Assembly (NCBI RefSeq): GCF_002931555.1
Contig: NZ_PSTZ01000010.1
Span: 124,001 to 188,000, forward strand
Direction of reading: 5' to 3'
DNA: 64,000 nucleotides
Source: Pseudoclavibacter sp. RFBB5
GTDB lineage: Bacteria > Actinomycetota > Actinomycetes > Actinomycetales > Microbacteriaceae
Shown: positions 1,577 through 31,307 of the stretch, piece after piece
Layout: each line of letters opens with the position of its first letter
Numbering within the stretch: position 1 is the stretch's first letter
The notes under the pieces: model-generated
What the model saw: the letters and a program-made list of their open reading frames with translations, nothing else
Database searches by the model: none
Told to the model about the DNA's origin: nothing
Made by a program: the position numbers and the translations under genes

Positions 1577-2766
1577 CGCCGGCCGAGACCTCGGTGACCC
1601 GGATCGTGTCGGCGTTCATCTCCGCGACGGACATCAGCCTCGCCGGCGGTGGCAGACGCGAGAGCCGTGACGTTCTTCGCCTGGCCAGATTCTCGACGCA
1701 GGACCGACGCGATGGCCAGGCGCCCGGCCTCATCGAGGCAGAACTCCCCGATGTCCGCGAGCCGCCGATGCCCGACGGACGTGCGCTCGACGTGCATGAC
1801 GAGGTCGATGGCGCTCACGGTCTGCCTGGCGACCGCATCCTGCGTCATGCCGGCAAGCGCGCCAAGGGCCTCGAGGCGCGAGGGCACATCGGCGAGGGAG
1901 TTCGCGTGGAGCGTGCCCGCGCCGCCGTCGTGCCCCGTGTTGAGTGCGGCCAGGAGCTCCCGGAGTTCGGCGCCGCGACATTCGCCGAGCACGAGCCTGT
2001 CCGGGCGCATCCGCAGCGACTCGCGGACGAGACGCTCGAGCGGCACGCTCCCGGCCCCCTCGATGTTCGCCTGTCTCGCCTCGAGCGAGACGCTGTGGGG
2101 ATGTGCGATGCGCAGCTCGGCGACGTCCTCGATCACGACGATGCGGTCGCGGGGGTCTGACTCCGAGAGGAGCGCGGACAGGAACGTCGTCTTCCCGCTT
2201 CCGCCGGCACCCGTGATGAGCACATTGGCACGAGCCCGCACCGCTTCCCGGACGAGCTCCTCCGCGCCAGGAGAGAAGAACGCCTGCCGGTCGAGCTGCT
2301 CGATGGTGAGCTGGCGGACCCGCGGTGCCCGAATGGACAGGAGCGTGCCGGAGATCGACACCGGAGGCAGCACAGCGTGCACGCGGATGCCGTCAGCGAT
2401 GCGCACGTCGACGCACGGCGCGGATTCGTCGAGGTGCCTGCCGCCGGCAGCGACGATACGGACGGCCAGTTCGCGCAGCGCCCGCTCGCTCGGCGCCACC
2501 CAGGAGTCTTCCCGCTCCGCGCCGCCGCCTCGATCGACGAAGAGGCCGTCGGTGCCGTTGACGAAGAGGTCCGTGACCTCGCCATCGGCGACGTACATCG
2601 CCAGGGGACCGAACGCGTCCGCCTGACCTCGAGTCAATGTCCGAACGGATCGCGGCGTGCTCTCCGCGGTGCGCGGCGGCAACGGCAGCGAGGCCGCACG
2701 CTGCGAGGCCGGACGAGCGACGAAGCGCTGGCCTGATGTCGATTCGAGAGCTGAGCCGTGTGCCAT
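1573..2766 (-). CDS. tadA: TadA/CpaF family pilus assembly ATPase
   Basis: This hexameric secretion ATPase powers Flp pilus assembly. With the chosen ATG at 2766 it is 397 residues. EVTDLFVNG near 63-71 is the typical N-terminal domain motif. GAGGSGKTT (about 186-194) is the Walker A loop, IVVIEDVAEL (about 210-219) the Asp box, and the segment LRMRPDRLVLGECRGAE the Walker B and arginine region, followed by the His box GTLHANS. The frame is open up to 2847, but the extra residues there are low complexity. No strong ribosome site marks any start, so the N-terminus is uncertain. It is first in the visible operon, which continues into TadB/C, pilin and TadE. Confidence 0.85.
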   Translation of the reverse strand: MAHGSALESTSGQRFVARPASQRAASLPLPPRTAESTPRSVRTLTRGQADAFGPLAMYVADGEVTDLFVNGTDGLFVDRGGGAEREDSWVAPSERALRELAVRIVAAGGRHLDESAPCVDVRIADGIRVHAVLPPVSISGTLLSIRAPRVRQLTIEQLDRQAFFSPGAEELVREAVRARANVLITGAGGSGKTTFLSALLSESDPRDRIVVIEDVAELRIAHPHSVSLEARQANIEGAGSVPLERLVRESLRMRPDRLVLGECRGAELRELLAALNTGHDGGAGTLHANSLADVPSRLEALGALAGMTQDAVARQTVSAIDLVMHVERTSVGHRRLADIGEFCLDEAGRLAIASVLRRESGQAKNVTALASATAGEADVRRGDERRHDPGHRGLGRR

Positions 2767-3336
2767 GCACGAAGCGTACGAACGCCGGAGGCCCACGAGT
2801 CCGATGGCCGTCGCGCCTGTGCATGGGCCACTGTGCACAGGGCACACGACGACGGAGTCGCGCCGGACCGAACCGGGGCCGCGGGAGAATTGGAGAGGCG
2901 CCCGGACAGGGGGATATCCGAGCGCCTCAGCTCATGCAGCGTTCAGGGGGGGTGATTGCTGCAGAGCGACGATAGTTGCGACAGAGAGCGAAACCATCGA
3001 GGTCCATGGTAGTGCATATTTCGTCCAGAAAACTAGCCGGTCGGCTGTCTATCGAAAAATGTTCGGCTACAGCCCGCACTTCCGCGCGAGATCACGGTTT
3101 ACGCCACATTTTTCACCCCCGACACGCCGCGCGCTCACGTCTGCGCGTGGCATGGACTGCGCCACGGCTGGCACAAGTTCGGGTTCACGTGCTCCCCGAA
3201 GCGAGGTGGCCCCGGGAAGCCCGCGGACATTCCCCCCGAAAGGCGGGAGTCGCGGCACATGCTGGCTCCGTAGACTTCTGGCACGCTGCGCCGCATTGAG
3301 GCGGTGCCGGATCGCAATGACGCGAAAGGACCTGTG
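2767..3336. other. intergenic region between divergent tadA and acs
   Basis: About 570 bp with no supported gene. It separates the leftward Tad operon from rightward acs and must carry both promoters. The stretch 2960-3060 is noticeably more AT-rich than its surroundings and is the likeliest promoter area. No riboswitch or convincing operator could be identified by eye. Confidence 0.4.
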
Positions 3337-5304
<1,968 letters not shown>

Positions 5305-6111: not shown

Positions 6112-8634
6112 ATGTCTGTCACGAATCCAGGGGCGCCCAAACGCAACATTCTGGGCGGCCTCCTAGGGCTGCTCGGTATGAGCGGAGTCGCGGGCGTGCT
6201 CGTCACGGCCATGATCACGCCGCTCATCGCCGTCACCGGTGTGGCCGCGAACAGCACCATCTCGCTGTTCGAGAACCTCCCGACGTACCTCGAGATCGGC
6301 TCGCTGCAGCAGAAGACCGAGCTGTATGCCTCCAACGGACAGAAGTTCGCCGAGTTCTACAACCAGAACCGCGAGGAGGTCTCGCTCGACCAGATCTCCC
6401 CGTACGTCGCAGCAGCGGCCATCTCGGTGGAAGACCCGCGCTTCCGTGAGCACGGCGGCGTCGACGTCATCTCCGCGGCACGAGCTCTCGCGCAGTCCGT
6501 CATCGGCGACGGCGCGGCGGGTGCATCCACGATCACCATGCAGTACGTGCGCAACGTGCGCGTGCAGACGGCCGAGGCGATCCCCAACCAGGAGGAGCGC
6601 GACAAGGCCTACCTCGAGGCGACCGAGACCACCACGGGCCGCAAGCTCCAGGAGATGCGCCTCGCGATCGGCGTCGAGAAGCAGTTCTCGAAGGACGAGA
6701 TCCTGCAGGGCTACCTCAACATCGCCCTCTTCGGCGGAACGACGTACGGCATCGAGTCTGCGGCGCAGCGCTACTTCGGCAAGTCGGCGCTCGACCTGAA
6801 CCTGCAGGAGTCGGCGAGCCTCATCGCCATCGTGCAGGAGCCCAACGCCTACCGGCTCGACGTGCCAGAGAACATCGAGGCGAACAAGATCCGCCGCGAC
6901 TACATCCTCATGCGCATGATGGAGGAAGGCGCGATCGACCAGGCGACCTACGAGGCGACCATCGCGACGCCCGTCGAGCCCCGCCCGACCGAGCCGAGGC
7001 ACGGCTGCGGCGCGGCCGAGGGCAACGCGCAGTACTTCTGCGACTACGTCCGGCTCATCATGGTGCAGGACCCGGCCTTCGGCGAGACCTACGAAGAGCG
7101 GCAGTTCAACTTCCAGACCAAGGGCTACCAGATCAAGACGACCCTCGACCTCGACATGCAGGCGCAGGGTCAGGCCTCGATGGCCTCCGCGGTTCCCGCG
7201 TACGTCGAGGGCATGGACATGGGATCAGCTGCCTCGATGGTCGAGGAGGGCACGGGCCGCGTGCTCATGATGGTGCAGAACACCGCCTTCGGCGACACCG
7301 AGGAGCTTGCTGCCCAACCCGGCTACACCTCGGTGAACTACAACACCGACTACGAGTACGGAGGCTCCACCGGCTTCCAGGTCGGGTCGACGTACAAGAT
7401 GTTCACGCTCGCCGAATGGCTCGCATCGGGCAAGTCGCTCAACTCGTCGGTCAACGGCAAGGACCGCGCTTTCAACCTCATCAACTTCCAGAACTCGTGC
7501 CTCGGCGCCGACGGCGGCTCCTGGTCGCCGACGAACGACGGTGGCGCGAAGGTCGGCAACGTCTCCGTCCGCCAGGCCACCTCGCAGTCCATCAACACGG
7601 CCTACGTGGCGATGGCTGAGCAGCTCGACCAGTGCCGCATCCGCGACACGGCCATGGCCATGGGCGCGCACCGTGCCGACGGCGCGGTCAACGAGTCGAA
7701 CCCGGCAGCCGTGCTCGGCACGAACACCATCGCGCCGCTCTCCATGGCGACCGCGGTAGCCGGCTTCGCGAACGGCGGCGTCACCTGCTCGCCCATCGCC
7801 ATCGACAGCATCACGCTGCGTGACGGCTCCGCCCTCGAGGCACCGAAGTCGACATGCAACCAGGCAGTCACCCCCGAGGTCGCCGCGGGAGTCACCTCGG
7901 CGCTCCAGGGCGTTGCAAACGGCGGTACCGGTAGCGCGTCCAACCCCGGCATCGCACCGCTGATGGGCAAGACCGGCACGACGGACAGCGGCCTGCAGAC
8001 GTGGATGGTCGGCGCGACCTCGAAGGTCGGCCTCGCCGTCTGGGTCGGCAACGCGAGCGGCCAGGTGCCCATGTACGGCGTTGACCTGCCCCGCGCCGTC
8101 GGCAGCCAGACCCGTCACGTCATCTTCAACGACGTCATCGCGCAGGCGATGCGCGTCTACGGGGGCGACTCGTTCCCCGAGCCCACCGGCAGCGCCGTCC
8201 AGAACGAGCAGGTGACGGTCCCAGACCTCGCCGGCAAGTCGACGGCAGAGGCGAAGACGTCGCTCGAGGGGCTCGGCTTCAGCGTCTCGGTCGGCAACCC
8301 CGTCGAGTCCGAGCAGCCCGAGGGGACTGTCGCGAGCACGCTGCCGAGCGCCAACACGCGCGTCACGCAGGGCACGACGATCACGATCAACCCGTCGCGC
8401 GGACCGGACACCGCGCCGACGTCGGACGCCCTCGCCGCCCCCGACCTCGCGGGCCAGACCCAGGAACAGGCGCAGTCGACCCTCTCCCAACTGGGGTTCA
8501 ACGGCACGATGGCGATCCTGACCGAGAAGAGCGCGACCGTCCCGAGCGGGCAGGTCATCCGCACCGACCCGGCCCCCGGCGCGGAGCTCGAGCGCACCGG
8601 GTCCATCCAGGTCTACGTCTCTTCCGGCCCCTAA
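6112..8634 (+). CDS. bifunctional class A penicillin-binding protein with two PASTA domains (copy 1)
   Basis: This is an 840-residue peptidoglycan synthase: a short cytoplasmic tail, a membrane anchor (about 14-45), then a GT51 transglycosylase with EDPRFREHGG (catalytic Glu about 107), GASTITMQ and RKLQEMRLA. The transpeptidase has the SxxK serine in GSTYK (Ser about 426), an SxN motif in QSINTAY and KTGTTD (Lys about 620). Two C-terminal PASTA repeats (about 700-840) would bind muropeptides or lipid II. It is first in a three-gene run: phosphoesterase (33-bp gap), then a second paralogous PBP. Both PBPs end in the same xxVSSGP tail. All catalytic residues appear intact. Confidence 0.95.
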   Translation: MSVTNPGAPKRNILGGLLGLLGMSGVAGVLVTAMITPLIAVTGVAANSTISLFENLPTYLEIGSLQQKTELYASNGQKFAEFYNQNREEVSLDQISPYVAAAAISVEDPRFREHGGVDVISAARALAQSVIGDGAAGASTITMQYVRNVRVQTAEAIPNQEERDKAYLEATETTTGRKLQEMRLAIGVEKQFSKDEILQGYLNIALFGGTTYGIESAAQRYFGKSALDLNLQESASLIAIVQEPNAYRLDVPENIEANKIRRDYILMRMMEEGAIDQATYEATIATPVEPRPTEPRHGCGAAEGNAQYFCDYVRLIMVQDPAFGETYEERQFNFQTKGYQIKTTLDLDMQAQGQASMASAVPAYVEGMDMGSAASMVEEGTGRVLMMVQNTAFGDTEELAAQPGYTSVNYNTDYEYGGSTGFQVGSTYKMFTLAEWLASGKSLNSSVNGKDRAFNLINFQNSCLGADGGSWSPTNDGGAKVGNVSVRQATSQSINTAYVAMAEQLDQCRIRDTAMAMGAHRADGAVNESNPAAVLGTNTIAPLSMATAVAGFANGGVTCSPIAIDSITLRDGSALEAPKSTCNQAVTPEVAAGVTSALQGVANGGTGSASNPGIAPLMGKTGTTDSGLQTWMVGATSKVGLAVWVGNASGQVPMYGVDLPRAVGSQTRHVIFNDVIAQAMRVYGGDSFPEPTGSAVQNEQVTVPDLAGKSTAEAKTSLEGLGFSVSVGNPVESEQPEGTVASTLPSANTRVTQGTTITINPSRGPDTAPTSDALAAPDLAGQTQEQAQSTLSQLGFNGTMAILTEKSATVPSGQVIRTDPAPGAELERTGSIQVYVSSGP

Positions 8635-9655: not shown

Positions 9656-12184
9656 ATGGCAACAAAGAAACGTGGAAGCTGGAAGCGCGGTCCGTTGACG
9701 CGCGTCCTCGGCCTGGTCGGGGTGAGCGGCCTCGCCGCCGTCCTGATCACCGCGCTCGTGACTCCGCTCGTCTCCGTCGCCAACATCGCGGAGAACAGCT
9801 CGATCAACCTCTTCGAGAGCCTCCCCGACTACCTGGAGATCAACGAGCTCCAGCAGGTCACCGAGCTCTACGCGAAGCAGGGCGGGCAGGACGTGAAGTT
9901 CGCCCAGTTCTACAACCAGAACCGCGTCGAGGTGCCGCTCGACAAGATCTCGCCATGGGTTCCGCTCGCGGCGATCTCGGTGGAGGACCCGCGCTTCCGT
10001 GAACACGACGGCGTCGACGTCATCTCCGCGGCCCGCGCGCTCGTCACGTCCGTCATCGGCGACGCCTCCGCAGGCGCCTCCACCATCACCATGCAGTGGG
10101 TCCGCAACGTGCGCGTGCAGGAGGCCGAGGCCATCCTCGACCCCGCCGAGAGCGAGAAGGCCTACATCGAGGCGACCGACCCGAACACGGGGCGAAAGCT
10201 GCAGGAGATGCGCCTCGCCATCGGCGTCGAGCAGCAGTACTCGAAGGACGAGATCCTCCAGGGCTACCTCAACATCGCCCTCTTCGGCGGCACCACGTAC
10301 GGCATCGAGTCGGCCGCCCAGCGCTACTTCGGGAAGCCGGCGATCGACCTGAACCTGCAGGAGGCCGCAAGCCTGATCGCCATCGTGCAGGAGCCGAACG
10401 CCTACCGCCTCGACCGCGAAGAGAACATCGAGGGCAACAAGGAGCGCCGCGACTACATCCTCATGCGCATGATGGAGGAAGGCGCCATCGATCAGGCGAC
10501 CTACGAAGCCACCATCGCGTTGCCCGTCGAGCCGAACGTCAAGGACCCGAACCACGGCTGCGAGTTCGCGGAGGGCAACGCCAAGTACTTCTGCAAGTTC
10601 GTGCAGCTGTCCGTGCTCCAAGACGAGGCGTTCGGCGCCACCGAAGCTGAGCGCAACTTCAACCTCGCAGGCAAGGGCTACAAGATCTACACGTCCCTCG
10701 ACCTCGACATGCAGAGCGTGGCCACGCAGTCCATGCAGAACGCCGTGCCGTCGACCTACCCGGGAACCGATCTCGGCGCTGCCGCCTCCATGGTCGAGAA
10801 CGGTACGGGACGCATCCTCGCGATGGTGCAGAACACCCAGTTCAGCGAGGTCGCAGAGAACCAGGAGCAGCCCGGCGTCACCTCCGTGAACTACAACGCG
10901 GACTACGAGTACGGCGGCTCGACCGGCTTCCAGACCGGATCGACGTACAAGATCTTCACGCTCGCCGAGTGGATCGCGTCGGGCAAGTCGCTCTACTCCT
11001 CGGTGCCCGGCCAGAACCGCACCTTCTACCTGGAGAACTTCTCCAACACCTGCGAGGCCGAATCCGACGGCCCGTGGGCACCGACCAACGACAGCGGCCA
11101 GCGCGTCGGCACCGTCTCCGTGAAGTCGGCGACGGCGTCGTCGATCAACACCGCCTACGTGACGATGGCCGAGCGGCTCGACCAGTGCCGCATCCGCGAC
11201 ACCGCGATGGCACTCGGCGGCCACCGCGCTGACGGGGCCATCAACCAGTCCGTTCCCGCCGCCATCCTGGGCGCCGCCAACGAGATGGCGCCGCTGTCCA
11301 TGGCGACCGTCATGTCCGGCCTCGCGAACAACGGCGTCTCCTGCTCCCCCACGGGCATCGACCGCGTGACGCTGCCCGACGGCACCGAGGTCACCGGGCC
11401 CAAGTCACGCTGCATCCAGGCCGTCTCCCCGCAGGTCGCGGCCGGCGTCGACGAAGCCCTTGCTGGCGTCGTCAACGGGGGCACCGGCTCCCGGTCGAAC
11501 CCGGGCATCGTGCCGCTCATCGGCAAGACGGGCACCACCGACAACGGCCTGCAGACGTGGATGGTCGGGGCGACGACGAAGGTCGGCCTCGCTGTCTGGG
11601 TCGGCAACGCCAACGGCCTCCTGCCGATGTACGACGTCGACCTGCCGCTCGCGGCGGGAAGCCAGACACGTCACGTGCTCTTCAACGACATCATCGGGCA
11701 CGCGATGAGCACCTACGGGGGTGGAGACTTCCCCGAGTACGTCGAGGATGAGGACGCCCTGGTTCTCGCCACGATCCCAGACCTGACGGGACGCTCCACG
11801 GAAGAGGCGCGCCAGGTGCTCGAGAGCCTCGGCTTCGGCGTCTCGATCGGCCCTTCGGTCGACTCGGACCAGTCGCCCGGAAGCGTCGCGAACACCCTGC
11901 CGACCGCGAACACGCGTGTCGACAAGGGGACGACCGTCACCATCCACCCCTCCGCGCTCCCCGATGATTCGACGACCGGCCTGCTGGCTCCGGACGTGAC
12001 CGGGAAGACGCAGGACGAGGCGACCTCGCTTCTGGCGGGTGCAGGGTTCACCGGAACAGTGACCGTCATCTCCGAGGCGAGCGCCACCGTTCCGAGCGGC
12101 CAGGTGATTCGCACGGATCCTGCAACGGGTACGCCGATCGAGCCGACCGGGCAGCTTCGCCTGTTCGTCTCGTCTGGCCCCTAG
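9656..12184 (+). CDS. bifunctional class A penicillin-binding protein with two PASTA domains (copy 2)
   Basis: This is an 842-residue paralog of the PBP at 6112-8634, colinear over its whole length. GT51 motifs EDPRFREHDG, GASTITMQW and RKLQEMRLA, the transpeptidase serine in GSTYK, an SxN motif in SSINTAY and KTGTTD are all present, so both activities should be functional. It carries two PASTA repeats and ends LRLFVSSGP. The start is 4 bp after the phosphoesterase stop. The first copy has E/Q-type substitutions scattered through otherwise matching blocks, which indicates an old tandem duplication rather than a recent one. A hairpin follows directly. Confidence 0.95.
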   Translation: MATKKRGSWKRGPLTRVLGLVGVSGLAAVLITALVTPLVSVANIAENSSINLFESLPDYLEINELQQVTELYAKQGGQDVKFAQFYNQNRVEVPLDKISPWVPLAAISVEDPRFREHDGVDVISAARALVTSVIGDASAGASTITMQWVRNVRVQEAEAILDPAESEKAYIEATDPNTGRKLQEMRLAIGVEQQYSKDEILQGYLNIALFGGTTYGIESAAQRYFGKPAIDLNLQEAASLIAIVQEPNAYRLDREENIEGNKERRDYILMRMMEEGAIDQATYEATIALPVEPNVKDPNHGCEFAEGNAKYFCKFVQLSVLQDEAFGATEAERNFNLAGKGYKIYTSLDLDMQSVATQSMQNAVPSTYPGTDLGAAASMVENGTGRILAMVQNTQFSEVAENQEQPGVTSVNYNADYEYGGSTGFQTGSTYKIFTLAEWIASGKSLYSSVPGQNRTFYLENFSNTCEAESDGPWAPTNDSGQRVGTVSVKSATASSINTAYVTMAERLDQCRIRDTAMALGGHRADGAINQSVPAAILGAANEMAPLSMATVMSGLANNGVSCSPTGIDRVTLPDGTEVTGPKSRCIQAVSPQVAAGVDEALAGVVNGGTGSRSNPGIVPLIGKTGTTDNGLQTWMVGATTKVGLAVWVGNANGLLPMYDVDLPLAAGSQTRHVLFNDIIGHAMSTYGGGDFPEYVEDEDALVLATIPDLTGRSTEEARQVLESLGFGVSIGPSVDSDQSPGSVANTLPTANTRVDKGTTVTIHPSALPDDSTTGLLAPDVTGKTQDEATSLLAGAGFTGTVTVISEASATVPSGQVIRTDPATGTPIEPTGQLRLFVSSGP

Positions 12185-24610: not shown

Positions 24611-26253
24611 CCACCACCCTCTACCTGAACGGCCGCGTCTTCCAGGGCACCGCATCCGCTGACCCCATGGATGCCGCGGATGCCGCGGACCCGAGCGCGT
24701 TTGTCGTGCGCGATGGCAAGTTCGCGTTCGTCGGCGACGAGGCGGATGCTCGTGCCTTCGCTGCGGAGCCAGACGCGACGGTGGACCTCGGCGGGCAGCT
24801 GGTGCTCCCGGGCATCACGGATGCGCACACGCACCTCGTCATGATGGGCGAGGCGCTTGGCCAGGTCGGGCTCACGGACGCGCGCGACCTCGCCGAGGTC
24901 CAGCGCCTGCTCGCGGAGGCTCGGGCCGCTGACCCGGATGCGAGGGTCCTTCGGGGTCGGGGTTGGCTCTTCGACTCGATCCCCGGCGGCGCCCCGACAG
25001 CGGCGATGATCGACGAGGTCGTGGCCGATGTGCCCGTGTACCTCGACGCCAACGACTACCACTCGTGCTGGGTGAACAGCGCGGCGCTGCGCGAGCTCGG
25101 CATCACTCGTGAGACGCCGGACCCGAGCGGCGGCCGCATCGAGCGCGACGCCGACGGGGAGCCGAACGGCATGCTCTACGAGACCGCCGCGGTCGAGTAC
25201 GCGTGGGTGCAGCGCGACCTCGCGATGACCGACGCCGACCGCGACGCCGCCGTTGAACGCGTGCTCGCCGCCTACAGTGAGGCCGGGGTGACGGGAGTCG
25301 TCGACATGGCGCTCAACGAGGTCGCCCTCGATGCGCTGCAGCGCGCCGCCGACCGCCGTGACGGCCAGCTTCCGCTGCGGGTCGCCGCGCACTGGCTCGT
25401 ATCCAATGCCGACGACGATGTTGCGAACCTCGAGCAGGTCGAGCGCGCCAGAGCGCTCGCGACCAAGTACGCGTCGCCGTGGCTGCGGGTCGTCGGCATC
25501 AAGCTCATCCTCGACGGCACGATCGACGCCTGTACGGCGGCGATGAGCCAGCCGTACTCGGACGGGTCGAACGCCGACGCCATCTGGCCGGTGGAACGTC
25601 TGCTCCCCGTGGTCGCGGCCGCTGATGCGGCTGGCCTGCAGATCGCGATGCACGCCATCGGAGACGCCGCGAGCACGATGGCACTGGATGCGCTCGAGCA
25701 CGCGTTCGTGGCGAACGGCGACATCGTGCGTCGGCACCGCATCGAGCACCTCGAGTACGCCGCACCCGGCACGGCGGAGCGCATGGCGGCGCTCGGCATA
25801 ACCGCATCCATGCAGCCCGTGCACGCCGACCCCGCGATCCTCGGCAATTGGATCGCGCAGCTCGACGACGACCGTGTGGAGCGCGGCTTCGCGTGGCACG
25901 AGTACGAGGATGCGCAGGCGACGCTGGCGTTCTCGACGGATGCGCCCACCGCTCCGTACGGTCCGCTCGCGAACCTCTACGTCGCAGCGACCCGCGAGTC
26001 GGCGCTCGACCCTGCTTTCCCTGCCGCGCAGGTACTTGGGCGCACGGTGCCGATCGAGCGCGCGATCGTGCACGCGACGCGGGATGCGGCAGCCTCGGTT
26101 GGTGACGCGAGCTGGCGGGGCAAGATCCGCGAGGGCTTCGCTGCCGACTTCTTCGTCGTCGACACAGACGTGCTGAGCGAGCCCGCCGCGAGCCTGCTCA
26201 CGGCGCGGACGGTGCTGACGGTTGTCGGCGGGCGGGTGACGTTCGAGGCGTGA
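24607..26253 (+). CDS. amidohydrolase family protein (YtcJ-like)
   Basis: This is a 548-residue metal-dependent hydrolase of amidohydrolase family 3. [11 protein letters not shown] holds the first HxH metal pair, the middle contains [17 protein letters not shown] typical of YtcJ proteins, HAIGDAAS and HRIEHLEYA give the later histidines, and [13 protein letters not shown] the final Asp. Substrates of characterised relatives include N-substituted amides and formamides; none can be assigned here. The start overlaps the transporter stop by four bases. Together with TetR this looks like a ligand-induced uptake-and-hydrolysis or resistance unit. Confidence 0.88.
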
Positions 26254-26362
26254 GGTCGCGCCTAACCGAGGACAGGTGATCGCGCAGAAACGGGGTCAGG
26301 ACCACACGGGAAGCAGCGCTGGCCGCCCCAAGTGTGCGCACAGGAGCGAGTACTCGCCCCGC

Positions 26363-26620
26363 CTACTTGTCGTGGACCTCACGCCGGTGGCCAGCGTGAA
26401 CGATCACCACGGTCAAGACGTCGTCCTGAATGCGATACAGCACGCGGCAATCACCGGTCCGAACGCGCCACTCAGGGCGTCCGGTGAGCTTCTTCGCGGC
26501 AGGTGGTCGCGGGTCCTCCGCGAGCAGCTCGACCGCGGCCTGGATGCGACGCTTCGCTTCCGGCGGGAGCTTCTTGATGGCTCTGGCCGCCGCCGGGAGG
26601 ACCAGGATCTGGTAGCTCAC
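26363..26620 (-). CDS. RelE/ParE-type toxin
   Basis: This is an 85-residue basic protein of the RelE/ParE fold. MSYQILVLPAAARAIKKLP, AKKLTGRPEWRVRTGDCRVLYRI and VVIVHAGHRREVHDK are the usual core, with the Arg-rich centre and the C-terminal HRREVY-like tail of RelE ribonucleases. The start overlaps the antitoxin stop by four bases, the standard antitoxin-first layout. It most likely cleaves mRNA at the ribosome. Confidence 0.92.
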   Translation of the reverse strand: MSYQILVLPAAARAIKKLPPEAKRRIQAAVELLAEDPRPPAAKKLTGRPEWRVRTGDCRVLYRIQDDVLTVVIVHAGHRREVHDK

Positions 26621-26880
26621 AGAGCGAGGCCGAGGTCACGCTTGACGGCATCCCACGGAATCGGCTCCTCCCCCAGCGCCTCGGTCTCTTCCCACGCAGC
26701 GTCCACTGCTCGAATGTCCGCGAGTTCCTCTGCGTCCTCGAGGAGCTGCTGCAACTGGGCGGCGTCGATCACGGCCGCGACGGGCCGGTTCCGCCGAGTC
26801 AGGTACACGGGCTCGAGGCGCGCGTCGTCGATGATCGAGGCCAGGCGAGCACGGGCATCGGTGATAGCGATCTGACTCAT
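26617..26880 (-). CDS. Phd/YefM-type antitoxin
   Basis: This is an 87-residue protein starting MSQIAITDARARLASIIDDARLEPVYLTRRNRPVAAVID, the Phd/YefM DNA-binding fold, with an acidic C-terminal tail that would wrap the toxin. ATG at 26880 is used. Two inverted repeats just upstream (26890-26934) are candidate operators for the auto-regulation expected of such pairs. Confidence 0.9.
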   Translation of the reverse strand: MSQIAITDARARLASIIDDARLEPVYLTRRNRPVAAVIDAAQLQQLLEDAEELADIRAVDAAWEETEALGEEPIPWDAVKRDLGLAL

Positions 26881-26889
26881 GGGGACAGC

Positions 26890-26934
26890 GTACGTCGAAT
26901 CGAAGAAAACGTACAGAGTGCGCGATAATGCACT
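26890..26934. promoter_or_regulatory. candidate operators of the toxin-antitoxin pair
   Basis: Two adjacent inverted repeats upstream of the antitoxin start: GTACGT (26890-26895) with ACGTAC (26909-26914), and AGTGC (26917-26921) with GCACT (26930-26934). Placement fits antitoxin-controlled autorepression. Confidence 0.5.
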
Positions 26935-26969
26935 GAAAGTTCGAGACCAGGGAAGCGATCTGAGGTTGC

Positions 26970-27064
26970 CCCTACCCGAGCAGTTCCACACCCGCCTCCG
27001 CGACAACCGCCCGCACCTCGTCGAAGTACCGCTGCGCCTGCTCGGTGAGGGGGATCGCGGAGTT
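26970..27064 (-). pseudogene. direct repeat copy 1: orphan 3' end of a LysR gene
   Basis: A 95-bp segment matching 28194-28288 at 90 of 95 positions. Read on the minus strand it encodes NSAIPLTEQAQRYFDEVRA and continues to VELLG-stop, the same last residues as the intact LysR at 28197-29138. Of the five differences four are synonymous and one is Leu to Phe, so this copy came from a functional homologous gene rather than decaying in place. With the second copy it brackets the DUF1016 nuclease gene. No other part of a LysR gene is present here. Confidence 0.85.
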
Positions 27065-27077
27065 GAGTGCCTGAATC

Positions 27078-28140
27078 TAGTCGTTCTCGGCTACGTCGAT
27101 CGCAATCCTCGTCAGAGCCTCCTCAGCTGGCAGCGCCGCCTGGTCTGCGGGCGACAGCTCGTATCGACTGACAGCGACCGGTTGCTTCGAACCGGCCAGT
27201 GAGTACTTGACGACCGTTTCGTTCTTGTCCGCCACGAGCAGAATGCCGACAGTGGAGGCATGAACTCGGGGATCCGCATCTGCTCGTCCACGAGCGCAAC
27301 GTAGAAGCCGAGTTGTCCGGCGTCACGCGGGTCGAATTTCGTTGTCTTCAACTCAACGACCACGAATCGCACTTGCTGCCAGTTGAAGAACAGCAGGTCC
27401 ACGTAGAAGTCGTCGCCGTCCACTTCGAAGTGCACTTGCCTGCCGACGAAGGAGAACCCCGAGCCGAGTTCACGGAGCGTCTCTACGACACGAAGCGTGA
27501 GCCGCTCCTCAAGTTCGCGCTCGCTCGCGTCCGAGTCGATCGCAAGGAAATCGAGGGCATACGGATCTTTGGTGAGCTGCTGGGCAAGCTCAGAGTCGGC
27601 GCGTTTCAGCGCTGACCCGAAGTTGGATGGCGCGGCTCCAGCCCGCTCGTGCAGACGGGCCGCGATCTGGTGTTGCAGAACCGCCCGACTCCACCCATGG
27701 TGGGCATCCTGGGCGGCGTACCAGTCGCGAAGGCGTTGGTCGTCGAGCTTGTCCAGGAGCTGGATGGTGTGGCTCCAAGGCAATTGGCCAACAGGCTGTT
27801 GGCGAATTCGATCCTCGCTCGGCCAGGCTTCCGCGAGCCGACGCGCATACTTCAGGTTCGACTTCGAGAAGCCCTTCATCGTGGGGAACTCGGCGCGAAG
27901 ATCCGCCGCGAACCGGGCCAGCACACCGCTGCCCCACGACTCGGTGCGCTGCCGTTCGATGATGGTGTGCCCAATGAACCACCACAATGCGATGACTTCG
28001 GTGTTCGCCTTTCGCTGCACGACGAAGCGTGCTTCGTGCGCGCGCCGGACTACAAGGGCCAGCGTCTGTGCGTACCCGGACGGGAGTATCTCAGTCACTC
28101 CCCCAGCGTCCTCCACACCACCGACAAAACCACGCCTCAT
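27078..28140 (-). pseudogene. DUF1016/YhcG-like PDDEXK nuclease, C-terminally frameshifted
   Basis: The protein reads as a DUF1016 family nuclease: an N-terminal helical domain (ANTEVIALWWFIGHTIIERQ, MKGFSKSNLKYARRLAEAWP, QLPWSHTIQLLDKL) and a C-terminal PDDEXK domain (VDLLFFNWQQVRFVVVELKTTKFDPRDAGQLGFYVALVD) with the D...ExK metal residues. Near 27262 the frame shifts: continuing in frame gives a nonsense tail ending at 27112, while the -1 frame gives HASTVGILLVADKNETVV and the expected family ending to a TAG at 27078. A single-base deletion or sequencing error explains this. The start is uncertain (ATG 28140, GTG 28116 or 28098). The gene lies inside the 95-bp direct repeats and has lower GC than its neighbours. 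Confidence 0.8.
27787..27809. repeat. 23-bp palindromic repeat, copy 1 (within nuclease gene)
   Basis: Palindrome with arms GCCAACAG and CTGTTGGC around one base, followed by GAATTC. It recurs with one central mismatch at 28152-28174 in the same orientation. Here it falls in the conserved RQQPVGQLPW coding segment. Confidence 0.7.
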
Positions 28141-28151
28141 CGGCGCGATCC

Positions 28152-28174
28152 GCCAACAGCCTGTTGGCGAATTC
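28152..28174. repeat. 23-bp palindromic repeat, copy 2 (upstream of nuclease gene)
   Basis: Arms of nine bases (CGCCAACAG at 28151-28159, CTGTTGGCG at 28161-28169) around a single base, then GAATTC. It sits just upstream of or at the start of the nuclease gene and 20 bp inside direct repeat copy 2. One centre mismatch to the copy at 27787-27809. Confidence 0.7.
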
Positions 28175-28193
28175 CGGAGCACCCCTGACACTC

Positions 28194-28288
28194 CCCCTAC
28201 CCGAGCAACTCGACCCCCGCCTCCGCGACAACCGCCCGCACCTCGTCGAGGTACCGCTGCGCCTGCTCGGTGAGGGGGATCGCGGAGT
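28194..28288. repeat. 95-bp direct repeat copy 2 (3' end of intact LysR gene)
   Basis: Contains the last 30 codons and stop of the LysR gene at 28197-29138. It matches 26970-27064 at 90 of 95 positions in the same orientation. The two copies enclose 1,129 bp holding only the DUF1016 gene. The pattern resembles an attachment-site duplication after integration at a gene 3' end; no integrase is visible. Confidence 0.8.
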
Positions 28289-29138
28289 GGCCGATCCAGC
28301 CGATCTCGATGCGTTCATCCACGTCCAGCGGCACCGCGACGATGCCGGGGTCGAGGTCATCACTGATGATGCCGGTCGAGATGGTGTAGCCGTCGAGGCC
28401 GATCATGAGGTTGAAGATCGTCGCCCGGTCGGAGACGCGAATCTCCCGTCTGCTCGACAGGGTCGAGAGGATCTCCTCAGCGAAGTAGAACGAGTTGTTC
28501 GCACCCTGGTCGAACGTGAGCCTGGGCAGGTCAGCCAAGTCGTCGAGCGTCGCACGCTTCCGGGACGCGAGCGGGTTCCGCCGCGAGACGAAGATGTGCG
28601 GCTGCGCGAGGAACAGCGGATGGAACACCAGGCCTGAATCCCGCAGCAGCTTGTCGATGACGTTCCCGTTGAAGTCGTTCCGATAGAGGAGACCGAGCTC
28701 GCTGCGGAGCGTCCGCACGTCCTCGATGATCTCCCACGTGCGGGTCTCGCGCAGCGAGAACTCGTACTCGGCCGCCCCGGTCGCCTTCACCATCCGCACA
28801 AACGCATCCACCGCGAACGAGTAATGCTGCGCCGACACCCCGAGCAGACGCCGCGACGGCGGACGACCCAGATACCGCTGCTCGAGGAGCGCCATCTGCT
28901 CGACCACCTGCTTCGCATACCGGAGGAACTCGGTGCCGTCAGTGGTGAGCGAGACGCCGCGCGCCGACCGAACGAGGAGGGCTCGACCCACGCGCGACTC
29001 GAGGTCCTTCATCGCCGCCGACATCGTCGGCTGGGCGACAAAGAGGACGTCAGCGGCGGCGCTGATCGAGCGCTCCGCGGCGACCTCCACGAAGTAGTGC
29101 AGCTGCTGCAGGGTCACGCCGTTCGATCGCCGACTCAT
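28197..29138 (-). CDS. LysR regulator, probably of mesXD
   Basis: This is a 313-residue LysR protein. The HTH is VTLQQLHYFVEVAAERSISAAADVLFVAQPTMSAAMKDLESRVG, and the effector domain follows. It is divergent from mesX with 121 bp between the starts, the classic LysR layout, and LysR genes neighbour mesXD in other bacteria. It probably activates the methionine synthase operon in response to a sulfur or methionine-pathway signal. Its 3' end forms one copy of a 95-bp direct repeat, so its last codons may have been replaced by recombination. Confidence 0.92.
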   Translation of the reverse strand: MSRRSNGVTLQQLHYFVEVAAERSISAAADVLFVAQPTMSAAMKDLESRVGRALLVRSARGVSLTTDGTEFLRYAKQVVEQMALLEQRYLGRPPSRRLLGVSAQHYSFAVDAFVRMVKATGAAEYEFSLRETRTWEIIEDVRTLRSELGLLYRNDFNGNVIDKLLRDSGLVFHPLFLAQPHIFVSRRNPLASRKRATLDDLADLPRLTFDQGANNSFYFAEEILSTLSSRREIRVSDRATIFNLMIGLDGYTISTGIISDDLDPGIVAVPLDVDERIEIGWIGHSAIPLTEQAQRYLDEVRAVVAEAGVELLG

Positions 29139-29145
29139 AGCCCAA

Positions 29146-29165
29146 AACTATAGTGACGAATAGTT
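29146..29165. promoter_or_regulatory. candidate LysR box between lysR and mesX
   Basis: Inverted repeat AACTAT (29146-29151) and ATAGTT (29160-29165) with an eight-base spacer, seven bases upstream of the LysR ATG. The AT-rich dyad overlaps the regulator's own promoter, as expected for an autoregulatory LysR site. Confidence 0.5.
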
Positions 29166-29259
29166 GCGACGGATTACCCGATAGCCAGCGCCCGCCTGCA
29201 CAATAAATGCATCCACGCCCACAGGCCTGCCGGCCTCACGACTCCCGGATTGGCCTCAC

Positions 29260-30252
29260 ATGGCGAACGACATCACGTTCAACATCACCACCACGCGCTT
29301 CGACGAGCACTACGCGCCGTCGGACAGCTCCCGCATCACCACGAACTTCGCCAACCTGGCACGCGGCGAGCACCGCCAGCAGAACCTCCGCAACGCGCTC
29401 ACGATGATCGACCGGCGCTTCAACGACCTCGCCCGCTGGGACAACCCCACCGGCGACCGCTACACGCTCGAGCTCGACATCATCTCCGCCTCGCTGCAGT
29501 TCGACGACGACGGCGACGACCGGGAGTTCCCACTCCTCGAGGTCCTCGACATCGGCATCGTCGACCAGCAGACCGGCAAGCGCCACCAGGGCATCGTGGG
29601 CAACAACTTCTCCTCCTACCTGCGCGACTACGACTTCAGCGTTCTGCTGCCAGCCGCGAACGCGGGCGGCACCGGGTTCACCCTGCCGGACGGCTTCGGC
29701 GAGCTGCACGGCAAGCTCTTCCAGCATTTCCTCGACTCCCCCGCCTACCAGGAGCGGTTCCACAAGGCCCCCGTCATCTGCATCAGCGTCTCCACGAGCA
29801 AGACCTACACGCGCACCGACAACCACCACCCGGTCCTCGGCGTCGAGTACCGGCAGGACGACTACTCGCTGACCGACCAGTACTTCGGCAAGATGGGCCT
29901 GCAGGTCCGCTACTTCATGCCGCCAGGCAGCGTCGCGCCCCTCGCCTTCTACTTCCGCGGCGACCTGCTGAGCGACTACTCGCTCCTCGAGCTCACCGGC
30001 ACGATCAGCACCATGGAAGCGTTCCAGAAGATCTACCGCCCCGAGATCTACAACGCCAACTCAGCCGCCGCGAACGTCTACAGCCCCACGCTCGACCAGC
30101 ACGACTTCTCCCGCACCGAGATCGGCTACGACCGCGAAGAGCGCAGCCAGCTCGCGAAGACACAGGGCGCGTACACGGCCGAGCACTTCGTGAAGCCGCA
30201 CGGCGACGTGCTGGATGCGTGGGCCGCCAACTACTCCGTCTCCGCCCGATGA
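29260..30252 (+). CDS. mesX: MesX (DUF1852), accessory to folate-independent methionine synthase
   Basis: This is a 330-residue DUF1852 protein, full length for the family (MANDITFNITTTRFDEHYAPSDSSRITTNFANLARGEHRQQNLRNAL at the N-terminus). DUF1852 members have been named MesX and are required with MesD for methionine synthesis in bacteria using this folate-independent, oxygen-dependent route. MesX has been proposed to be an oxygenase-like partner, but its reaction is not established. It overlaps or abuts mesD and is divergent from the LysR regulator. Confidence 0.9.
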   Translation: MANDITFNITTTRFDEHYAPSDSSRITTNFANLARGEHRQQNLRNALTMIDRRFNDLARWDNPTGDRYTLELDIISASLQFDDDGDDREFPLLEVLDIGIVDQQTGKRHQGIVGNNFSSYLRDYDFSVLLPAANAGGTGFTLPDGFGELHGKLFQHFLDSPAYQERFHKAPVICISVSTSKTYTRTDNHHPVLGVEYRQDDYSLTDQYFGKMGLQVRYFMPPGSVAPLAFYFRGDLLSDYSLLELTGTISTMEAFQKIYRPEIYNANSAAANVYSPTLDQHDFSRTEIGYDREERSQLAKTQGAYTAEHFVKPHGDVLDAWAANYSVSAR

Positions 30253-30272
30253 CCGACGAAGGATCGACGATC

Positions 30273-31307
30273 ATGAACACCCTCCTCCCCGTTGCCAGCG
30301 TTGGCAGCCTGCCCAAGCCGTCGTGGCTCGCGAAGCCCGAGGTCCTCTGGTCTCCCTGGGAGCTCGAGGGCGCAACGCTCGTCGAAGGCAAGCAGGATGC
30401 GCTGCGCATCGCCGTGCAGGAACAGCGCCGACGCGGCGTCGACATCATCAGCGACGGCGAGCAGACCCGTCAGCACTTCGTGACGACGTTCATCGAGCAC
30501 CTCGAGGGCGTCGACTTCGAGAACCGCGAGACGGTCCGCATCCGCGACCGCTACGACGCGAGCGTCCCCACGGTCGTCGGCGCCGTCAGCCGCAAGCAGC
30601 CCGTCTTCCTCGACGACGCGAAGTTCCTGCGCGCACAGACCGACCAGCCCATCAAGTGGGCGCTCCCAGGGCCGATGACGATGATCGACACCCTCTCCGA
30701 CCGGCACTACAAGAGCCGCGAGAAGCTGGCGTGGGAGTTCGCGACCATCCTCAACCAGGAAGCCAAGGAGCTCGAAGCGGCCGGCGTCGACATCATCCAG
30801 TTCGACGAGCCCGCCTTCAACGTCTTCTTCGACGACGTGGCGGACTGGGGAGTCGCAGCCCTCGAGCGCGCGGCAGAGGGCCTGCGCGCCGAGACGGTCG
30901 TGCACATCTGCTACGGCTACGGCATCAAGGCCAACAACGACTGGAAGGCGACCCTCGGGGCCGAGTGGCGCCAGTACGAGCGGACGTTCCCGCTCATCCA
31001 GAAGTCCTCCATCGACATCGTGTCGCTCGAGAGCCACCACTCCCATGTGCCGACGGACCTCGTCGAGCTCATCCGCGGCAAGAAGGTCATGCTCGGCGCC
31101 ATCGACGTGGCAAGCGAGCAGATCGAGACGCCGGAAGAGGTCGCCGACACCCTCCGCAAGGCGCTCCAGTTCGTGGATGCAGACAAGCTCATCGCGAGCA
31201 CCAACTGCGGCATGGCTCCCCTGCCGCGCGACGTCGCCTACGGCAAGCTGAGCGCGCTGGCTGCGGGCGCTGCGATCCTGCGGGCAGAGCTGGGCGAGCA
31301 GGCCTAG
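30273..31307 (+). CDS. mesD: MesD core methionine synthase
   Basis: This is a 344-residue protein of the MetE C-terminal-domain type, lacking the N-terminal half of MetE, so it is a core methionine synthase. ASVGSLPKPSWL, SDGEQTRQHFVTTFIEHLEGVDFENRETVRIRDRYDASVPTVVG and the zinc ligands (HICYGYG and the Cys in ASTNCGMAPL) fit MesD. It transfers a methyl group to homocysteine without folate as donor; the donor in vivo is unsettled. ATG 30273 has GAAGGA nine bases upstream and is preferred; ATG 30249 overlaps the mesX stop. It forms an operon with mesX. Confidence 0.92.
   Translation: MNTLLPVASVGSLPKPSWLAKPEVLWSPWELEGATLVEGKQDALRIAVQEQRRRGVDIISDGEQTRQHFVTTFIEHLEGVDFENRETVRIRDRYDASVPTVVGAVSRKQPVFLDDAKFLRAQTDQPIKWALPGPMTMIDTLSDRHYKSREKLAWEFATILNQEAKELEAAGVDIIQFDEPAFNVFFDDVADWGVAALERAAEGLRAETVVHICYGYGIKANNDWKATLGAEWRQYERTFPLIQKSSIDIVSLESHHSHVPTDLVELIRGKKVMLGAIDVASEQIETPEEVADTLRKALQFVDADKLIASTNCGMAPLPRDVAYGKLSALAAGAAILRAELGEQA

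Follow-up and report, generated by a model that had tools for sequence, protein, structure and literature searches.

The window considered here, the whole stretch of 64,000 nucleotides that was analysed from Pseudoclavibacter sp. RFBB5, contains a LysR-type regulator gene whose 3' end is present twice (Table 1). Self-comparison of the window revealed a direct repeat of 95 bp, identical at 90 of 95 positions, with a spacing of 1225 bp. Both copies encode, in frame, the last ~30 LysR codons and the stop (SAIPLTEQAQRY[L/F]DEVRAVVAEAGVELLG-stop). According to the alignment, five differences separate them, of which one exchanges Leu and Phe and four are synonymous (Gly, Val, Glu, and Leu). The original prediction had described the repeats, the LysR gene ends, and the kinds of difference in the same way; only its position for copy 1 (26970-27064) was one base off, the correct one being 26969-27063.

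Table 1. Genes, repeats, and palindromes at the LysR locus (window coordinates)
Feature	Position	Strand	Evidence
LysR-type regulator adjoining mesX-mesD; open frame whole, 3' end formed by repeat copy 2	28197..29138	-	ORF; PF00126 + PF03466; 99% identical ortholog in G008
Repeat copy 2: LysR 3' end now in use; last ~20 nt match a putative foreign lineage (G006-like)	28194..28288	-	Repeat search, alignments
Repeat copy 1: putative displaced native LysR 3' end (G008-like), ~30 codons + stop	26969..27063	-	Repeat search, alignments
DUF1016 (YhcG-type) PD-(D/E)XK nuclease gene; starts with GTG at 28097, frame broken once near 27255, ends with TAG at 27077-27079	27077..28097	-	Family search, translations, L040 homology
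Palindrome inside DUF1016 ORF, core GCCAACAGSCTGTTGGC; arms reach a few bases beyond	27787..27803	.	Palindrome scan
Second palindrome copy, between LysR stop and DUF1016 start	28152..28168	.	Core search of window and genome
ParE/Phd-type toxin-antitoxin pair, native right-hand flank	26363..26880	-	Family search; G008 alignment of 25475-27063 spans it
mesX, divergent neighbour of LysR (context)	29260..30252	+	PF08908 E=2.1e-168
mesD-like gene with cobalamin-independent methionine synthase domain (context)	30369..31307	+	PF01717 E=4.5e-38

The DUF1016 nuclease gene and its protein

Between the repeats lies a DUF1016 (YhcG-type) nuclease gene on the minus strand. As had been predicted, it stands alone: in the 1.2-kb insert the DUF1016 ORF was the one submitted to the family search, and reading of the ORF list gave no second gene and no integrase-like ORF or fragment. 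A methylase gene is likewise absent among the ORFs seen in the insert, and no tRNA gene occurs within 14 kb of it. The nuclease matches PF17761 (DUF1016_N) with E=3.8e-37 and 127.9 bits (cut-off 32.8) and PF06250 (YhcG_C) with E=3.2e-34 and 118.5 bits (cut-off 32.5). Homology to a relative, L040, begins at the GTG codon, compared with position 28191 in the ORF list. After the single frame break, the conserved C-terminal part resumes in another frame and continues to the TAG; the PF06250 match falls in two pieces, and the reading frame is not intact. Barring a sequencing error at the break, the gene is probably inactive; the window copy probably represents a decaying example.

DUF1016 genes have been detected in 53 of 398 genomes of the family to which the window belongs (E<=1e-20) and in 26 of 396 genomes drawn from its phylum (E<=0.001), and among 60 E. 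coli records taken at even intervals, 41 list a yhcG/PDDEXK nuclease gene at one locus. Three relatives match PADLOC PDC-S02 (4.8e-122, 2.8e-144, and 2.2e-131, best model for each), and the anti-phage label attached to it is a candidate one, drawn from these three. Both domains of the DUF1016/YhcG (PDC-S02) type are present in the window copy, but that copy is frame-broken.

Sequence searches gave no credible solved relative. The YhcG nuclease domain has earlier been likened to Holliday-junction-resolvase-like enzymes in the accessible part of one report (PMC1189080). AlphaFold models of the L040 relative reached a pLDDT of 87 for the whole protein and 94.9 for the N-domain. The nuclease domain matches NucS/EndoMS (2vld) with E=3.6e-5. 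With the N-domain model, the first seven PDB matches obtained by Foldseek were all Noc/ParB structures, at weak scores (E 1.0-2.6, TM by target 0.28-0.47). The protein might perhaps combine a ParB/Noc-like helical N-domain with a PD-(D/E)XK nuclease.

Empty site and origin of the two LysR ends

The closest relative compared, G008, carries a LysR gene 99% identical to that of the window, with one 3' end and without the nuclease gene. Its DNA is collinear across both edges of the insert, as window positions 25475-27063 and 28194-30638 align at 96.1% each, and the 95-bp sequence occurs twice in the window and once in G008. The empty site expected from the original prediction is thus present. The LysR gene was detected (E<=1e-40) in six of the nine other genomes of the genus, or seven of ten with the own genome counted; PF06250 was found in none of these nine, leaving the own genome as the sole positive. 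G008 also aligns through the toxin-antitoxin pair next to copy 1, and G006 aligns over most of it; the pair is taken as native because the G008 alignment runs through it.

The two repeat copies resemble different lineages in their tails. Copy 1 carries the native tail, with three differences from G008 over 114 aligned nt, and the last ~20 nt of copy 2 are common to the other lineage, represented by G006. At the first difference (CTC), copy 2 has the base of G008. There follows a stretch of 34 bp identical in both copies, after which copy 2 reads GGGGTCGAGTTG as G006 does and copy 1 reads GGTGTGGAACTG as in G008. The assignment of the crossover rests on few sites, since one base common to the two copies is different in G008. 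From these few sites, copy 1 appears to be the native LysR end and the end of copy 2 a foreign one, as the prediction had anticipated for a comparison of the copies with a local and a donor lineage.

These observations agree with the proposal that the insertion brought its own LysR end, restored the frame, and displaced the old end. The further claim that both copies evolved in functional genes, drawn in the original prediction from the synonymous pattern, fits one exchange within the shared 34 bp; two long independent histories are unneeded. The incoming DNA would have held a lysR end next to the DUF1016 gene, for which a circle would be enough. Homologous recombination between this DNA and the host lysR, with a single exchange within the 34 bp, could have produced both junctions. 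The LysR frame would have stayed whole through the supplied end, and the native end would have been shifted downstream. If the incoming DNA recombined homologously, no dedicated integrase would be needed. The search for a donor with this LysR beside DUF1016, made with the LysR protein against 275 DUF1016 loci, found none and gave two weak matches (39-43% over 70-79 aa).

Palindromes of DUF1016 genes

The core GCCAACAGSCTGTTGGC occurs in the window at the two places of Table 1 alone, and no further site was found in the 3.77-Mb genome at <=2 mismatches. In many relatives a palindrome with arms of other sequence occupies the same position in the ORF, ~300 nt in. The extent of this pattern was surveyed over nt 216-420 in 230 distinct DUF1016 genes, with near-identical, short, and N-terminally incomplete entries dropped. 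Palindrome scores of at least 9, 10, and 12 were reached in 176, 153, and 88 genes, compared with 2.7, 1.0, and 0.1 expected from synonymous shuffles. Three other intervals of the same genes yielded 5, 6, and 1 at a score of at least 9, 1, 5, and 1 at 10, and 1, 3, and 1 at 12, and control stretches gave 40, 20, and 10 of 1960 windows at the three thresholds. A score of 9 was reached at 79 of 99 loci classed as actinobacterial and at 97 of 131 others, and was not reached in 54 of the 230 genes. The protein segment encoded there, which directly precedes PW[GS]H, is less conserved.

Eight of the 176 palindromes have a half-integer centre and were left out, which gives 168 loci. The bases at distances 5 and 8 from the centre are paired in every one of the 168, and all four Watson-Crick types occur; as the palindromes were chosen by score, the pairing is partly built in, but the variety of pairs is not. 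Additional copies lie nearby. In a sequence test at these 168 loci, the 21-bp core of the respective allele matched 49 further sites at most 400 nt from the gene, compared with a mean of 0.50 with foreign-allele cores, and an earlier scan had found 27 second sites in 80 loci compared with 2.0 with arm-permuted cores. Most of the second sites lie within the ORF, shortly before its start, or shortly behind its stop. Perfect sites in six related genomes are confined to DUF1016 elements, one deleted element, and one solo site. A dispersed repeat has been ruled out, as the palindrome occurs in two places in the own genome and one to five times (median 2) per E. coli genome having any.

Another explanation attributes the palindrome to an RNA hairpin or to a mutational by-product of template switching instead of a protein site. 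Template-switch (quasipalindrome) correction could keep palindrome arms symmetric without selection, and the arms here are often perfect over 13-16 bp. However, non-paired positions at a distance of at least 3 comprise 38 GT, 55 AC, and 116 others; there is no G.T excess over A.C, and a sense-RNA hairpin is therefore disfavored. The similar place in the ORF across phyla, the allele-matched second copies up- and downstream, and the rarity of palindromes in the other intervals also speak against this explanation, which is considered unlikely. No description of a palindrome in DUF1016/yhcG genes was found in the accessible portion of the open-access literature.

The palindrome that DUF1016 genes carry within themselves may be the lasting novelty of this locus, and it is predicted from sequence to be a protein site. 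The models and the palindrome fit a dimer binding a palindrome. The DUF1016 protein would bind there as a dimer for autoregulation, and possibly for mobilisation of its own gene. A parS site is present inside spo0J. The two-fold palindromic sites parS and NBS of ParB and Noc, as far as they are described in the available part of PMC7383237, resemble the DUF1016 palindromes, and their helical DNA-binding domain is weakly resembled by the DUF1016 N-domain. In contrast to ParB/Noc, the DUF1016 sites are few and tied to the own gene, a nuclease domain is present, and the structural match is weak.

In E. coli K-12, the yhcG ORF contains three palindromes of score >=10, and one more lies 28 nt after the stop (L336:1328-2455). 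A palindrome is also present after gltD; the interval up to nanQ is thus bounded by palindromes on both sides. yhcG is present together with its 3' palindrome in five other filled strains (L338, L339, and L341-L343), and within the stretches fetched the gltD-side palindrome was found in none of the five. In an O25b:H4 strain the whole interval is absent, and one palindrome is left between gltD and nanQ (L337:3442-3510), which agrees at 27 of 27 positions with an in-gene palindrome from another strain. Of 5426 E. coli genomes, 944 cover at least 80% of a 110-nt query spanning this empty gltD-nanQ junction. Another solo palindrome, from position 1501 of locus L400, agrees at 25 of 25 positions with the palindrome inside a related DUF1016 gene, and the rest of the element is absent beside it.

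In the genus of G305, a DUF1016 unit with the same right end is present in three genomes (L260, L262, with the gene at 2499-3590 when turned to the plus strand, and L263). This end lies 8 nt past a palindrome that contains the stop codon. The left ends fall within about 15 nt of each other, and the immediate flanks do not align; against independent insertions, three less similar stretches (65-76%) that lie farther upstream are common to L262 and L263. A fourth genome contains an internally deleted copy of the unit, 190 bp long (L375:1115-1304).

DUF1016/YhcG genes might be widespread, compact, mobile, and possibly defensive nuclease genes with a ParB/Noc-like domain and an allele-specific palindromic site in the ORF and near the ends of the unit. 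The protein would act at this site to control, and perhaps move, its own gene, and solo palindromes such as that of the gltD-nanQ junction in some E. coli would be empty sites or scars. This broader view is tentative, with the odds somewhat against it. Being placed similarly in the gene and allele-matched, K-12 yhcG included, the palindrome offers a ready candidate binding site to examine and suggests in concrete terms how a nuclease of this kind could be controlled and move.

Gene-end duplications and mode of insertion

Direct repeats on both sides of DUF1016 genes were sought in 272 loci that represent better-scoring matches and not a random draw, 265 of which were scanned. A repeat with E<1e-6 was found at 31 of the 265, and 16 passed an automatic gene-end rule, same-place duplicates included. 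A tight rule demanded such a repeat no more than 300 nt before and no more than 350 nt after the gene; of the 272 loci 249 are distinct, and 232 of these were testable. Repeats were present at 17 of 232 and gene-end duplications at 11 of 232, a count that includes the doubted L107, L160, and L196 and that L179 enters through an ORF other than the one inspected. A wider rule gave gene-end duplications at 14 and any repeat at 27 of 239 DUF1016 loci, compared with 0 and 4 of 130 control ORFs from the same genomes and the window; a flanking gene-end duplication as in the window is thus not a chance finding. The window itself has a direct repeat of 344 bp with 75.9% identity (7228-7568 and 10781-11121) around a control ORF, which probably reflects paralogous genes.

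Inspection revealed clear cases in which the duplicated gene varies, with gene names read from translations at the loci other than the window. Besides LysR with 95 bp in the window, they comprise an ABC-ATPase (L093, 28 bp, 5037-5064), an agmatine-deiminase-like (aguA) gene (L112, 112 bp), an hsdM-like gene (L195 at 2641-3785, L198, and L206), another hsdM-like gene (L228 at 1941-3313 and L239 at 1747-3113), a sulfatase-like gene (L208, 257 bp), the 5' end of an hsdR-like gene (L179, 317 bp), and a Fic-like gene (L070, 143 bp). At L070 a Vsr-like gene accompanies DUF1016, and as it lies between, the locus fails the tight rule. The DUF1016 stop codon at L093 falls inside the duplicated end of the upstream gene, and the insertion may therefore have deprived the nuclease of its own 3' end. 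In L195, L228, and L239, DUF1016 follows directly behind the hsdM-like gene, and the 3' end of the latter recurs beyond DUF1016; the DUF1016 start in L195 overlaps the upstream stop (ATGA). Strong repeats dropped as dispersed or unclear include L016, L049/L024, L064/L135, L100/L145, L107, L127, L152, L160, L167, L188, L190, L196, L243, L246, L252, and L285.

A small control was provided by Fic genes of the same genome family, with 30 loci of the best-scoring matches, 28 testable in the wider and 27 in the tight scan. Repeats were found at 5 of 27 and gene-end duplications at 2 of 27 under the tight rule, and at 6 and 3 of 28 in the wider scan. Flanking repeats as a hallmark specific to DUF1016 are ruled out by this control. 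Since Fic genes share the duplications, these say nothing about DUF1016 causing its own insertion. At L317, L320, and L334 the Fic genes have gene-end duplications of 149-172 bp in the same layout as at DUF1016. Judging from the Fic control, this entry route seems to be general for lone accessory genes, DUF1016 among them.

Several other origins of the LysR arrangement can be considered. DUF1016 could spread by itself as a free-standing homing endonuclease that cuts a target gene, and the ensuing repair would introduce the nuclease gene along with a replacement end that resists it. The lone nuclease gene and the replaced gene end would fit. The same holds for the repeated finding of the layout at the 3' ends of LysR, aguA-like, Fic-like, ABC-ATPase-like, and hsdM-like genes, and for the unit that three related genomes carry with matching ends and a fourth in internally deleted form. 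However, the same duplications surround Fic genes, targets and duplication lengths vary (28-317 bp), the palindrome pattern is missing from the LysR target outside the insert, and the window nuclease is frame-broken, which makes homing rather unlikely. The original prediction had favored an integrase-type element minus its integrase. Islands classically integrate into the 3' end of a gene and restore it, and the direct repeats bounding the insert and the restored LysR end would agree with the remnant of a tyrosine or serine integrase island, with the lysR 3' end as attB and one cargo gene left. Against this stand an insert without integrase fragment or second gene in the ORF list and without a nearby tRNA gene, a repeat of 95 bp with a mosaic tail, which is long for an att core, and the same layout around unrelated lone genes; such a remnant is improbable. 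Tandem duplication at the locus itself, or decay of a second LysR gene, with nothing coming from outside, would explain why the same gene end occurs twice 1.2 kb apart, but it is contradicted by the empty site in G008, which has neither a second gene nor DUF1016, by tails that belong to two lineages, and by the lack of PF06250 in the nine other genomes, and is scarcely credible.

The same layout at DUF1016 genes in distant phyla and at Fic genes fits an insertion with long target duplication better than an integrase-type element, and the integrase reading is replaced here by this known, more general insertion mode. An insertion with its own LysR end and a switch in the shared 34-bp stretch, together with the in-gene palindrome of DUF1016 as a binding site of its own protein, is a fairly probable joint explanation of the sequence data. 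With its empty site and two-lineage tails, the LysR case offers a route by which a lone gene could enter the end of another gene and leave the frame unbroken.

Among free-standing homing endonucleases there are some that come with a duplicate of the host gene's end, as in the Allomyces atp6 type. There, as here, a nuclease gene lies between a working replacement end and a displaced old end; in the present case, in contrast, cleavage of the target is hypothetical, and the same duplications occur around Fic genes. Insertion with long target duplication is known around restriction-modification genes (Nobusato et al. 2000, as cited in PMC1643837, PMC3031569, and PMC2749054). As far as the accessible parts of these papers describe them, such insertions share with the LysR locus a short gene unit, a long and variable target duplication relative to the empty site, and a nuclease-type cargo. 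The LysR locus differs from them in its solitary DUF1016 nuclease, without a methylase seen, and in that the duplicated piece is a gene 3' end kept in use, with copies whose tails are those of different lineages.
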